DNA of 64,000 bases from assembly GCF_904067545.1 (NCBI RefSeq), contig NZ_LR881183.1:1306277-1370276 (forward strand), read 5' to 3'. Source of the stretch: Thermococcus camini. GTDB lineage: Archaea > Methanobacteriota_B > Thermococci > Thermococcales > Thermococcaceae. The notes under the pieces were generated by a model. That model was not told the origin of the DNA. It made no database searches and was given only the letters and a program-made list of their open reading frames with translations. The stretch's first letter is position 1. Every line of letters begins with the position of its first letter. Both the position numbers and the translations under genes were made by a program. Below, one piece after another: positions 34,413-40,622 of the stretch.

Positions 34413-35837
34413 CTATCCCAAAAACCCCCTAATCCCCGCTGCCTCGACTATCAACTCGCTGCTCAGTTCCCCTCCAAGGATCCTTGACGTTATCTCGGCG
34501 TGCCTTTCGTCTCTCTCGTATTCCCTGGCCATCCTCACTAAAGGCTTTAGGAACTTGAACTTCTCCGCCGCCCCCGGGTTGAAATAGCGGAAGGCGAACT
34601 CGATGTCCCGGTAAAGGCCGAGGTAGTACTCGCTGATGAATTCGAGCTCCTTTTCGCTCAATGCGCTCAGGCCGAGGAGCTCGGGCGGGACTCCAAGGGA
34701 GTAAAGCGAAGCAGTGAACTTTATCGCCCTTGGAAGCGCCGAACCGTTCACCTCGCGGGAGTAGCCGAAGAGACCGATGTGAAGCTTCCTCCTTCTCCGC
34801 GATGGGACGAACCTCGCTACCTCCCGGATGAAGGGGGCGAGAGCCCTGAGTTCCTCCGAGTATCTGGCTTCGTACTTCCCGAGGATTTCAAACACCTCTC
34901 CCGGAACGGGCTGGGCTTCCCTCCTTTTCGATTCCCCGATCCACTCAATGGCCCTTATGACGTCCTTCGGCGTTCTATCGTATTTGAACGAGCTCTGAAT
35001 CGTGAAGGTCTGGACGCTCGGGTATTCTGCCAGAACCCCATCGACGTTCTCCGGTGCAAAGTGTCCCCTGAACGGTGCACCGCCAACGCCGATTATCGGG
35101 TAGATTGAGATGCCCGTTTCCTCCTCAAGCTCCTGAAGTTCAAAGAGCGCCAGCTTGTCGTAGAGCACCGCACTTATGAGACCGTAGTTCATGGCCGGAT
35201 CGCTCCTCGCGAGGAAAATGCGCTGATATTCTACCTCCTTCCCGCGGAGGTACTCCCTCACGATGTCCGCCGCACCCAGTATCGCCTCCCTGCTCTCGAA
35301 GAGCGGGATGACGGCTATCTCTGAGGGATAAAACTCCCCTATCCACTCGTGGAGCTTGATGTCGTGGACCCGCTTGTACTGCTTCCCGGTTATGTAGTGT
35401 CGGTATAGCTCGTAGACCCTGTTCAGTTCCCGAGAGGAGGTTGTCATCGGAAGGATGACCTCGAATATCGGCGGAAGCTCTTCCCCGTAGAACAGCCTCG
35501 CGTAGTCCGCCGACCGGGGTATGGTCTCTAAGGTCTCGAGGAGGAGCTTTGCCTCCGCCCTCTCGACGCTGGGGTTGGGGACGCGCGGCGTCAGTCTGAG
35601 TTCTTTTCCGAGCTTTTTGCGCTTGAAGAAATAGCCGTAGCGCTCGAATAGCTTCTTGACGACGAACTCGTCAACCTCCTTACCCTCGAAGTCCCACATC
35701 TGCTCGTCTATCCCCAGGACGCTGAAGGCGTAGAAAGCCTCTATAACCTCGTCCTCACCGCCCATAGTCGGACTGCCCGCGAAAAAGGGAATGAATACGT
35801 TGTCAGGATGCTGAGTACTCATCGTTCTTGGTATCAT
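34413..35837 (-). CDS. ppcA: Phosphoenolpyruvate carboxylase, archaeal type
   Basis: A 474-residue enzyme of the archaeal PEPC family, about half the length of bacterial PEPC. It begins MIPRTMSTQHPDNVFIPFFA and carries conserved segments such as EQMWDFEGKEVDEFVVKKLF, ILPMTTSSREL, GVGGAPFRGHFAPENV and TIQSSFKYD. It carboxylates PEP to oxaloacetate, an anaplerotic step. ATG at 35835-35837 follows GGTGGAATAA. It stands alone, divergent from the MobA-like gene. Confidence 0.95.
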   Translation of the reverse strand: MIPRTMSTQHPDNVFIPFFAGSPTMGGEDEVIEAFYAFSVLGIDEQMWDFEGKEVDEFVVKKLFERYGYFFKRKKLGKELRLTPRVPNPSVERAEAKLLLETLETIPRSADYARLFYGEELPPIFEVILPMTTSSRELNRVYELYRHYITGKQYKRVHDIKLHEWIGEFYPSEIAVIPLFESREAILGAADIVREYLRGKEVEYQRIFLARSDPAMNYGLISAVLYDKLALFELQELEEETGISIYPIIGVGGAPFRGHFAPENVDGVLAEYPSVQTFTIQSSFKYDRTPKDVIRAIEWIGESKRREAQPVPGEVFEILGKYEARYSEELRALAPFIREVARFVPSRRRRKLHIGLFGYSREVNGSALPRAIKFTASLYSLGVPPELLGLSALSEKELEFISEYYLGLYRDIEFAFRYFNPGAAEKFKFLKPLVRMAREYERDERHAEITSRILGGELSSELIVEAAGIRGFLG

Positions 35838-37718: not shown

Positions 37719-38237
37719 TCACACCGTTTCCACCATTTTTCTGACTGCCCAGGCCACACTCACAGCCACGGTAGCCTTTAGGACATCAAACGGCACGAAG
37801 GGCAGTAACCCAAGCCTGAAAGCACTCTCAAAGTCCCCGTTCATGAAGAAAGCGAGCCTGAGCCAGCCCAGGAGATATATGACCGTGATGCCGCCCAGGG
37901 AGCCTGCGAACATCCCCGCTTTTTTCTCCGTCTTTTCCGTCAGGTATCCTGCTATAAAAGCCGCTATTGGAAATGCGGCTATGTAGCCCCCAGTCGGCCC
38001 GTAGAGAACGGCGAAGCCACCCTGAAGGCCCGCAAACACGGGAATCCCCATCGCACCCATGGCCACGTAAACGAGCTGACTTAAAAAGCCGAGCCTGGCA
38101 CCAAGAACGAGCCCCCCGAGGAGAACGAACAGAACCTGAAGCGTTATTGGAACCGGGCCTATGGGGATGCTTATTTGGGCACCAATCGCCGTCAGAGCGG
38201 CGAAGAGAGCTGCAAACGCCACGTCTCGACTTTTCAT
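37719..38237 (-). CDS. bioY: Biotin ECF transporter substrate-binding S component BioY
   Basis: A 172-residue protein with about six membrane helices and the BioY signature: AALFAALTAIGAQISIPIG, PITLQVLFVLLGGLVLGARL, YVAMGAMGIPVFAGLQGG and the GPTGGYIAAFPIAAFIAGYL helix. It binds biotin and works with the EcfA/EcfT module encoded divergently nearby. Only one EcfA gene is present here; it could act as a homodimer or with another ATPase. ATG follows GGAGGTGATAGA. It shares a promoter/operator region with the BirA-like gene (38271-38299). Confidence 0.93.
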   Translation of the reverse strand: MKSRDVAFAALFAALTAIGAQISIPIGPVPITLQVLFVLLGGLVLGARLGFLSQLVYVAMGAMGIPVFAGLQGGFAVLYGPTGGYIAAFPIAAFIAGYLTEKTEKKAGMFAGSLGGITVIYLLGWLRLAFFMNGDFESAFRLGLLPFVPFDVLKATVAVSVAWAVRKMVETV

Positions 38238-38270
38238 TCTATCACCTCCTTTCCATCACCCGCAGGCGGA

Positions 38271-38299
38271 CGTTAATCTTTAAAATGTTTTAGTTAACG
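38271..38299. promoter_or_regulatory. Palindromic operator spanning the divergent bioY / BirA-like promoters
   Basis: CGTTAA (38271-38276) and TTAACG (38294-38299) are perfect inverted repeats, with inner TAAAA/TTTTA arms giving a 29-bp dyad. It contains TATA-like boxes for both directions (CTTTAAAATG rightward, TTTTAAAG leftward), so a bound repressor would block both genes. The neighbour encodes a BirA-type winged helix, making a biotin-responsive operator the simplest reading. Confidence 0.65.
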
Positions 38300-38312
38300 A
38301 AACTCGGTGGCC

Positions 38313-39107
38313 ATGAGGGGACTCATCAGGGACAGCAGTGTTAAGAGGGGCATCCTTGGCATACTCCGGAGGGATAAGAGGGTATCCGGCGAGGCCATGG
38401 CCGCGGAGCTGGGGGTGTCCAGGGTCGCCGTATGGAAGCATGTGCGGGAGCTGACCGCCCTCGGCTACACCATAGATCCCTCCAGGAAGGGTTATATGCT
38501 CCTCTCTGAGCCAGGGGAGCCTTACCCGTGGGAGCTAAACGTGAGGAGCTACTATGTTCTGAGAACGCCATCTACCATGGACGTTGCAGGGAAGCTCGCA
38601 GAGGAGGGGGAGCCCGGATGGACGTTTGTCATAGCCAGGGAGCAGACATCAGGCAGGGGACGCAGGGGGAGCCGCTGGGAATCCCGGAGGGGAGGACTGT
38701 ACTTCTCCGTTATCCTCCGACCGGATATGAGGCTGGCGGATGTGTCTGGGCTGGTGCCCCCGACGCTCGACGCGATTGTTCGGACACTGTCCCGCTATGG
38801 AATCGAGGCGGAGATGAGGGAATGCGGGGTCTATGCAGAGGGGAGAAAAACGGCCGGCGTGCTGGTGGAGGCCGCGGGTGAGCTGGATATGGTGAGGTAC
38901 GCCGTCATTGGGGTGGGTATCAACGTCTCCAATCCCGTGCCAGCGGGCGCGGTCTCAGTTGCAGAGATACTCGGGGACGCACCGTCCCTCCTGGAGGTTT
39001 CGAGGGTTCTGTTCGGCGAACTCATGAGCTCACTGGGAACTTTTTTAAATCCCGGGACGGAAGTGGAAAGCGATGCTGAGGGTGGAGAACGTCTGGCACG
39101 TCTATGA
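38313..39107 (+). CDS. birA: BirA-family biotin regulator; ligase motif lost
   Basis: A 264-residue protein: N-terminal winged helix (KRVSGEAMAAELGVSRVAVW, KHVRELTALGY, about 20-55), then a biotin ligase-like domain with the biotinyl-AMP loop GRGRRGSRWES and GGLYFSVILRP retained. Where ligases have KWPNDVL this protein has MRECGVY just before KTAGVLVEA, so the catalytic Lys and the whole motif are gone. The C-terminal SH3-like domain is also absent; after ELMSSLGTFLNPG the frame overlaps ecfA by 35 bp. A dedicated biotin-sensing repressor is more likely than an active ligase. ATG at 38313 follows GGTGGCC. Confidence 0.8.
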   Translation: MRGLIRDSSVKRGILGILRRDKRVSGEAMAAELGVSRVAVWKHVRELTALGYTIDPSRKGYMLLSEPGEPYPWELNVRSYYVLRTPSTMDVAGKLAEEGEPGWTFVIAREQTSGRGRRGSRWESRRGGLYFSVILRPDMRLADVSGLVPPTLDAIVRTLSRYGIEAEMRECGVYAEGRKTAGVLVEAAGELDMVRYAVIGVGINVSNPVPAGAVSVAEILGDAPSLLEVSRVLFGELMSSLGTFLNPGTEVESDAEGGERLARL

Positions 39108-39864
39108 GACCGGCAGGGAAGCTCTGAAAGGAGTAAGCTTCGAGATGGGGGAGGAGATAGTCGCGTTAGTTGGCCCTAACGGGAGTGGAAAAACCACCCT
39201 CGCGAAGCACCTCAACGGCCTCCTGAAGCCCACGCGGGGCAGGGTGACGGTGGATGGGATGGACACGCGCGAACACACCGTCGCCGAGCTGAGCACGAAG
39301 GTGGGCTACGTCTTTCAGAACCCCGAGCACATGTTCTTCGAGGAGAACGTGTTCCGCGAGGTTGCCTTCGGGCCAAGGAACCTCGGACTGAGCGAGGAGG
39401 AGATTGAAGAGCGCGTCCGGTGGGCGCTGAGGGCGGCCAATCTGGAGGGGTACTGGGAGAGGACACCGTACTCAATGAGCGGCGGCGAGAAGCAGAGATT
39501 AGCTATAGCCTGTGTTCTGGCGATGAAACCGAAGTACCTTATCCTGGACGAACCAACAACCGGACTGGACGCGAGGAGTTCCTCCAGTGTCATCGATGCC
39601 GTGAGGAAGCTCCGCTCCGAGGGGCACGGGATACTGCTCATAACCCACGATATGGACCTGGTTCTGGAGCTGGCCGAGAGGGTCCTCCTGCTGCACGACG
39701 GCAGAAAGGTCTTCGATGGCCCCGTGGAGGAGTTCTTCTCGCTTGAGCTTCACGATTTTGGGCTTGAGAAGCCCGAACTTCTCAGGATAAGCGAGGGTGC
39801 TGGAGTGGGCTTCGTGAGAAGCGTTCGTGAGCTGGTCGATGCCCTGGCGGGTGGTGCGGTATGA
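39073..39864 (+). CDS. ecfA: ECF transporter energy-coupling ATPase EcfA
   Basis: A 263-residue ABC ATPase of the CbiO/EcfA type: Walker A GPNGSGKTTLAKHL (about 34-47), Q-loop VGYVFQNPEHMFFEENV, signature SMSGGEKQRLAIA, Walker B YLILDEPTTGLD and H-loop LLITHDMDL. It powers vitamin uptake with EcfT and an S component, here probably BioY. The start overlaps the end of the BirA-like gene; a TATA-like ACTTTTTTAAATCC at about 39039-39052 inside that gene offers its own promoter. It overlaps ecfT by ATGA. Confidence 0.93.
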   Translation: MLRVENVWHVYETGREALKGVSFEMGEEIVALVGPNGSGKTTLAKHLNGLLKPTRGRVTVDGMDTREHTVAELSTKVGYVFQNPEHMFFEENVFREVAFGPRNLGLSEEEIEERVRWALRAANLEGYWERTPYSMSGGEKQRLAIACVLAMKPKYLILDEPTTGLDARSSSSVIDAVRKLRSEGHGILLITHDMDLVLELAERVLLLHDGRKVFDGPVEEFFSLELHDFGLEKPELLRISEGAGVGFVRSVRELVDALAGGAV

Positions 39865-40622
39865 TATATCCATTCTACACGGAGAAGAGCTCCCCACTGC
39901 ACTCCCTCGACCCCAGGGTCAAGATAATCGGAACCATCGCCGGGATAGCGGCGATTATGCTGTACAACGACCCCAAAATCCTGATACCCCTGTTCTTCGC
40001 TTTCCTGCTCGTCGGAAGGCTTCTCGGCGGGGTCGAGATACGGGAGCAGATAAAGCTCCTCAAACCCCTCCTGCCGATAGTCATCATAACCCTTGTTGTG
40101 TGGCCAATCATCTACGAGCCGAGGCTCAGGGGACTGCTCTTCGGTGTTTCTTTCGCCATGAGGCTGCTCACGTTTGCACTGATAACGTTTCTCCTGTTGA
40201 TGACGACACCCCAGCGCGACCTCATCCTCGGCTTCGTCAGGCTCGGCATGCCATACGAGTTTGGTCTGACGATTTCGATAGCCCTCCGCTACATTCCGAC
40301 ACTCTATGTGTTGTCCAGAAACATAACCGATGCCCAGAGGAGCCGCGGCTGGGAAGTTGAGAAGGGGAATTTCCTGGTGAGGGCAAAAAAGATGACCGCC
40401 GTTCTCATCCCCCTGCTCGTTGCCTCCCTAAAGACCGCCCACGAGCTGAGCATAGCACTTGAGAGCCGCGCCCTCGGCGCCACCAAGAAGAGGACGTTTC
40501 TCTACGATATCGAGATGAAGGGCAGGGATTACGCGGCCACTGTGGTCATTCTGATTCTCTTCGGAGCGGCGCTCTACGTTCGCTACGGCCTGGGGCTCGG
40601 GCACGTTAGTATATACGGCTAG
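39861..40622 (+). CDS. ecfT: ECF transporter transmembrane protein EcfT
   Basis: A 253-residue membrane protein with five or six helices. It has the CbiQ/EcfT cytoplasmic coupling helices with Ala-Arg-Gly-type signatures (DAQRSRGWEVEKGN and ALESRALGATKKR). It links EcfA ATP hydrolysis to toppling of the S component. The N-terminal SPLHSLDPRVKIIGTIAGIA is conserved in the family. Translationally coupled to ecfA. Its TAG stop shares the CTAG tetramer with the stop of the convergent next gene. Confidence 0.92.
   Translation: MIYPFYTEKSSPLHSLDPRVKIIGTIAGIAAIMLYNDPKILIPLFFAFLLVGRLLGGVEIREQIKLLKPLLPIVIITLVVWPIIYEPRLRGLLFGVSFAMRLLTFALITFLLLMTTPQRDLILGFVRLGMPYEFGLTISIALRYIPTLYVLSRNITDAQRSRGWEVEKGNFLVRAKKMTAVLIPLLVASLKTAHELSIALESRALGATKKRTFLYDIEMKGRDYAATVVILILFGAALYVRYGLGLGHVSIYG

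Follow-up and report, generated by a model that had tools for sequence, protein, structure and literature searches.

The locus described here raises the question of whether a BirA-like protein that lacks a ligase motif is still a bifunctional biotin ligase or has become a dedicated biotin regulator. The protein, REG, is encoded within a 64,000-nucleotide stretch of the Thermococcus camini genome (the window; C1:1306277-1370276 of a 2.02-Mb single contig) by a 264-aa ORF on the + strand that runs from an ATG at 38313 (or a GTG at 38307) to the stop at 39107. A sequence-only reading of the window had taken this ORF for a ligase turned into a pure biotin sensor. In window coordinates, REG and its neighbors are the following.

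37719-38237, - strand: bioY, biotin-binding S component of an ECF transporter, divergent from REG (PF02632, E=2e-42)
38313-39107, + strand: REG, proposed BirA-derived regulator with a winged helix (wHTH) and a BPL-like domain, without KWPND or BPL_C (alternative start GTG 38307)
39073-39864, + strand: ecfA, ECF transporter ATPase, its start overlapping the end of REG (best match TIGR04521, below cut-off; assigned with synteny)
39861-40622, + strand: ecfT, transmembrane T component of the CbiQ family (PF02361; synteny)

REG lies between bioY and ecfA-ecfT and overlaps ecfA by 35 nt, which is the arrangement that the sequence-only reading had described. A Shine-Dalgarno-like sequence of bioY, GGAGGTGA, is found at 38242-38249. 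The same order, with bioY divergent from consecutive REG, ecfA, and ecfT genes, is retained in most genomes outside group g3; some members of groups g2 and g5 have an insert between REG and ecfA, and in the g3 copies only bioY and REG stay together. In several genera, an ORF found at 34413-35837 in the window also occurs near bioY; it is tentatively labeled ppc for a possible similarity to archaeal PEP carboxylase.

In a Pfam search, REG matched HTH_11 at residues 14-61 (E=1e-11) and BPL_LplA_LipB (PF03099) at residues 84-204 (E=7.5e-13), in line with the earlier description of a winged helix and a BPL domain. The same search found no BPL_C (PF02237), the SH3-like C-terminal domain that had been thought to be missing, and no GntR or TetR DNA-binding domain (compare BioR and BioQ). 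The presence of a winged helix sets REG apart from Group I BPLs, which have no DNA-binding domain. Of the features of Group II BirA, REG has the winged helix, a BPL domain with the GRGRRG..W loop and the KxxG lysine, and a BirA-type operator, whereas the KWPND motif and the BPL_C domain are absent. The segments of REG that bear on its function are listed below.

38334-38507, + strand: DNA-binding winged helix at about residues 8-65 (HTH_11 match; invariant SG..SR..WK columns)
38520-38537, + strand: PYPWEL linker from the winged helix to the BPL-like domain (P70, P72, W73, and E74 invariant in 19 diverse orthologues)
38571-38579, + strand: S-T-M, matching the biotin-site motif S-T-N found in ligases
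38652-38678, + strand: GRGRRGSRW biotinyl-AMP loop, E. coli 115-123 (alignment)
38814-38828, + strand: M-R-E-C-G where ligases have K-W-P-N-D (alignment)
38847-38849, + strand: Lys179, the adenylation lysine equivalent to E. coli K183 and P. horikoshii K111, retained (alignment; role, PMC2384007)
38910-38924, + strand: G-x-G-x-N, E. coli G204, G206, and N208, retained (alignment)

The PYPWEL segment is almost invariant and is a signature of the REG family.

REG passes the NCBIfam birA_ligase model (TIGR00121, 99 bits against an 83-bit cut-off), as would be expected of a working bifunctional BirA in which other residues have taken over the role of KWPND, the reading that current annotation implies. 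Published surveys point the same way. Lombard and Moreira (2011) report that P. abyssi and P. furiosus each have a BPL and a BirA gene that branch far apart, and sequences with a complete N-terminal domain are treated there as bifunctional (PMC3199775); a 2021 survey cites an HTH protein of T. barophilus and counts it among the biotin ligases too (PMC8253408). The HTH-BPL proteins that these surveys name for the three species very probably belong to the REG family, and the accessible text of both sources makes no mention of a loss of ligase motifs.

Against a bifunctional BirA stands the comparison of REG with its relatives, for which we aligned REG, 44 orthologues, 20 archaeal separate BPLs, and E. 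coli BirA. Residue counts refer to 44 alignable REG copies, and residues are given in E. coli numbering. The block corresponding to KWPND reads MRECG in REG and is one residue shorter, so the replacement noticed in the sequence-only reading holds up when E. coli BirA, archaeal BPLs, and orthologues are aligned together. KxPND is found in 0/44 regulators and in 20/20 of the separate ligases examined, KWPND is also present in all 13 HTH-BPL proteins compared from elsewhere, and a search for an intact K-x-P-N-D elsewhere in REG found none. The C-terminal domain is likewise absent from all of the regulators, and a dedicated ligase is always there where the genome is complete enough. Based on these counts, we consider it improbable that REG is a working bifunctional BirA. 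A sequencing error or a recent frameshift that masks KWPND or the C-terminal domain was rejected as an explanation, since both are absent in 44/44 orthologues.

One part of the earlier reading did not stand, namely that the catalytic lysine had been lost together with KWPND. The lysine reported to be critical for adenylation, K183 of E. coli BirA and K111 of P. horikoshii BPL, sits in the KxAGxLVE motif (PMC2384007), and in REG it is kept as K179. It is one of the residues that are invariant in 44/44 regulators (S89, T90, Q112, G115, W123, S125, K183, G186, E190, G204, G206, and N208). At position N91 of the STN motif, the regulators have Met in 44/44 cases and the ligases Asn in 20/20, a difference that marks off the family. 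The KWPND motif is reported to make no contacts to ligands (PMC2384007); in S. aureus BirA, its lysine is described as belonging to an electrostatic network that connects the DNA-binding domain with the active site (PMC6391492). Loss of KWPND alone is not proof of lost ligase activity. Because the K183 equivalent is kept, biotinyl-AMP binding, and perhaps synthesis, may survive in REG, and the likelier deficit, to judge from the residues retained, is in the transfer of biotin to BCCP rather than in ligand binding.

These observations allow a sharper version of the repressor proposal, in which REG makes biotinyl-AMP as its own corepressor and cannot pass biotin to BCCP. The invariance of the K183 equivalent, W123, and N208, the retention of most of the GRGRRG loop, the critical role reported for a lysine outside the KWPND motif, and the missing C-terminal domain in every copy all fit such a protein. 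Other data do not: R118 is Arg in 39/44 regulators and Ser or Lys in the other five, the biotinyl-AMP loop is one residue shorter in the g3 (Pyrococcus-like) regulators, and a P. horikoshii D104A mutant is reported to have crystallized with unreacted ATP and biotin (2dxt), so the Asp of KWPND may help adenylation. We therefore hold self-made biotinyl-AMP to be possible and no more than tentatively so. It is likewise possible, though less likely than not, that REG acts as a half-ligase transcription factor for which the adenylate would be a signal only and BCCP demand would be read through competition between REG and BPL for biotin, not through the repressor itself. Since R118, which holds biotinyl-AMP in ligases, varies in 5/44 copies, members of the family may differ in ligand and affinity.

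A separate ligase, for which the sequence-only reading had proposed a search, is present in the T. camini genome: an intact 236-aa BPL with KWPND and BPL_C is encoded at about C1:1223.5-1224.3k. It lies ∼3 kb from the EAMKMEN domain of a carboxylase/decarboxylase-like subunit (L180; G000:C1:1220000-1232000), so that ligase and substrate are neighbors. The genome encodes at least two EAMKMEN-type biotin carrier domains, and an EAMKMEN protein at C1:373.4k is taken as its own BCCP. No bioB was found above cut-off in this genome, from which the organism probably imports its biotin and is a probable biotin scavenger.

In a survey of 94 Thermococcaceae genomes, REG was found in 47, which represent all six genera. 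In 45 of these the copy is essentially full, although in one case it is divided between contigs, and in the other two it is a fragment. A separate BPL is present in 46/47 of the REG genomes, and the exception is a genome that is 69% complete. One 61%-complete genome (L176; G085:C59) has, in addition to REG and a separate BPL, a further HTH-BPL protein of ∼349 aa with KWPND, which may be contamination from another organism. BioY is found in 84/94 genomes, and REG is confined to these (47/84 versus 0/10, p 0.001). As nearly half of the bioY genomes are without REG, the gene is dispensable.

The absence of REG from about half of the genomes and the loss of KWPND and the C-terminal domain might also suggest a decaying birA pseudogene. 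This reading is contradicted by an open frame in all full-length copies, by pairwise dN/dS values of about 0.08-0.26, by invariant pocket and signature residues, and by the retained operator; REG is under purifying selection, and we reject decay as scarcely credible.

The intergenic region between bioY and REG contains two features.

38272-38299, no strand assigned: putative BirA-like operator, GTTAAT-N15-GTTAAC(G) (pattern match, conservation)
38279-38285, both strands: TATA-like box TTTAAAA between the half-sites, presumed common promoter of bioY and REG (sequence, conservation)

The palindromic operator facing REG in the sequence-only reading is confirmed, and no other site in the 2.02-Mb genome fits the pattern at ≤3 mismatches; in the window, the pattern is expected 0 times by chance. 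Intergenic regions of relatives contain GTTAAY-N15/16-GTTAAC with TTTAAAA between the half-sites. The exact operator adjoins bioY in 40/47 REG genomes, with near matches in the other seven, and is found near bioY in 0/37 genomes that have bioY and lack REG (Fisher p 5e-17, with genomes treated as independent of ancestry). In two genomes in which REG is apart from bioY (L056 and L065; G093 and G001), the operator remains upstream of bioY and no copy turned up within the 110 bases that precede REG, so autoregulation has probably been lost there. An operator that is conserved with REG and stays at bioY is the pattern expected for a transcription factor and its site. Upstream of bioY in one genome without REG (L127; G092), there is one apparent half-site and a degraded second (gttaaaattttaaaagttaacc), which suggests operator decay after the loss of REG.

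A wider regulon was also considered and set aside, given the single genome site at ≤3 mismatches. Extra GTTAAY-N15/16-GTTAAC sites near BPL in three relatives (L177, L178, and L179) are not at biotin genes and look like chance or unrelated matches. In two of these relatives, a perfect GTTAAC-N15-GTTAAC (L177:6181 and L178:6368) lies about 5 kb from BPL with no recognizable biotin gene.

The tie to bioY also bears on the identity of the ligand. The fixed N91-to-M change in the biotin site and an LplA-like protein encoded in the same genome (C1:1874k) would suit a regulator for another carboxylate, such as lipoate or octanoate, with bioY a mere neighbor. The restriction of REG to bioY genomes and the position of the operator at bioY argue otherwise, as do the retention of S89, T90, Q112, and the remaining BPL pocket and profile matches that are to BPLs, the LplA model being reached only at E=0.02. 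We regard another ligand as very unlikely. An AlphaFold2 model of REG made from two input sequences has too low a confidence (mean pLDDT 52, pTM 0.53) for the pocket to be read from it; a Foldseek search with it ranked S. aureus BPL/BirA first (E 2e-12), which is consistent with the fold and carries little weight.

Based on the above results, REG is probably a repressor that is dedicated to biotin status and derives from a bifunctional BirA, with BCCP biotinylation left to the separate intact ligase. The idea of a ligase turned into a pure biotin sensor is thus supported by the second BPL, the clade-wide loss, purifying selection, and an operator within an uptake cluster, and is qualified by the adenylation lysine that REG keeps. 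Biotinyl-AMP drives BirA dimerization and operator binding in B. subtilis (PMC4016012) and S. aureus (PMC6391492), and it is by analogy with this behavior that we infer the ligand, dimerization, repression, and absent transfer activity of REG. When biotin is plentiful, REG would bind biotinyl-AMP, self-made or from the separate BPL, or free biotin; the ligand-bound protein would dimerize as BirA does and occupy GTTAAY-N15/16-GTTAAC. Because the half-sites flank a TATA box that appears to be common to the divergent bioY and REG-ecfA-ecfT transcripts, access of TBP/TFB would be blocked and both transcripts would be turned off together, lowering biotin uptake and REG itself. When biotin is scarce, the operator would be freed.

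In E. coli and B. subtilis, one BirA molecule senses and serves the demand for biotin, and the levels of the BCCP acceptor feed into repression. The REG family would pull apart these two roles. Like the group II BirA proteins of E. coli, B. subtilis, and S. aureus, REG has a winged helix joined to a BPL domain, the GRGRRG loop, a K183-type lysine, and an operator made up of two half-sites at bioY or bio genes; unlike them, it lacks KWPND and BPL_C, would leave ligation to a separate BPL, has STM in place of STN, and contains the PYPWEL linker. The stand-alone BPL of P. horikoshii (235 aa; PDB 1wnl, 2ejg) is the closest solved structure to the REG catalytic domain and represents the separate ligase of REG genomes; in contrast to REG, this enzyme has no wHTH and keeps KWPND and the C-terminal domain. 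L. lactis BirA1 and BirA2 resemble REG and BPL in being a pair of paralogues of which a single member carries a DNA-binding domain, yet both are active ligases that act via biotinyl-AMP (PMC4861984), whereas REG has lost ligase motifs. The BirA1 site at bioY1, ACAGTTAACCTAAATTTGATTTTAGGGTTACTGT, is bound in EMSA (PMC4861984); it is of the GTTAAC type and resembles the putative operator of REG, known here from sequence. BioR, a GntR family regulator dedicated to biotin, likewise has sensing apart from ligation (PMC4554459), but its fold is unrelated and it is not derived from a ligase.

In the literature searched, which lay mostly outside subscription journals, no paper was found that states the loss of ligase motifs or a dedicated repressor role for these proteins. 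The present analysis would correct a probable annotation error, since the birA_ligase model accepts archaeal REG proteins, which are listed as bifunctional ligases. A natural repressor without the ligase parts would permit a direct test of whether sensing works without ligation and of which molecule serves as the signal: biotin itself, or biotinyl-AMP from another source or from REG. Genetic work is feasible in some Thermococcaceae, which makes such a test practical.

The REG proteins form a single clade (support 100/99) that holds when the KWPND columns and N91 are removed. In the sister families of the same class, the corresponding proteins are ordinary HTH-BPL proteins of ∼315-350 aa with KWPND present. 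The simplest reading of this distribution would be that KWPND and BPL_C were lost once, in an ancestor, and that the resulting form was then maintained. One duplication inside Thermococcales as the origin of REG and BPL is neither favored nor rejected by the tree (AU test p 0.34). A wider scan of genome contigs returned only four loci, two from close Thermococcus relatives and two clostridial. One clostridial locus, from a MAG (L036:4001-4585), encodes a 194-aa BPL-like protein that has KPVND for KWPND and is too short for the C-terminal domain; its ORF overlaps the start of a BioY-like gene (L036:4569-5105), and the protein is possibly another ligase variant.
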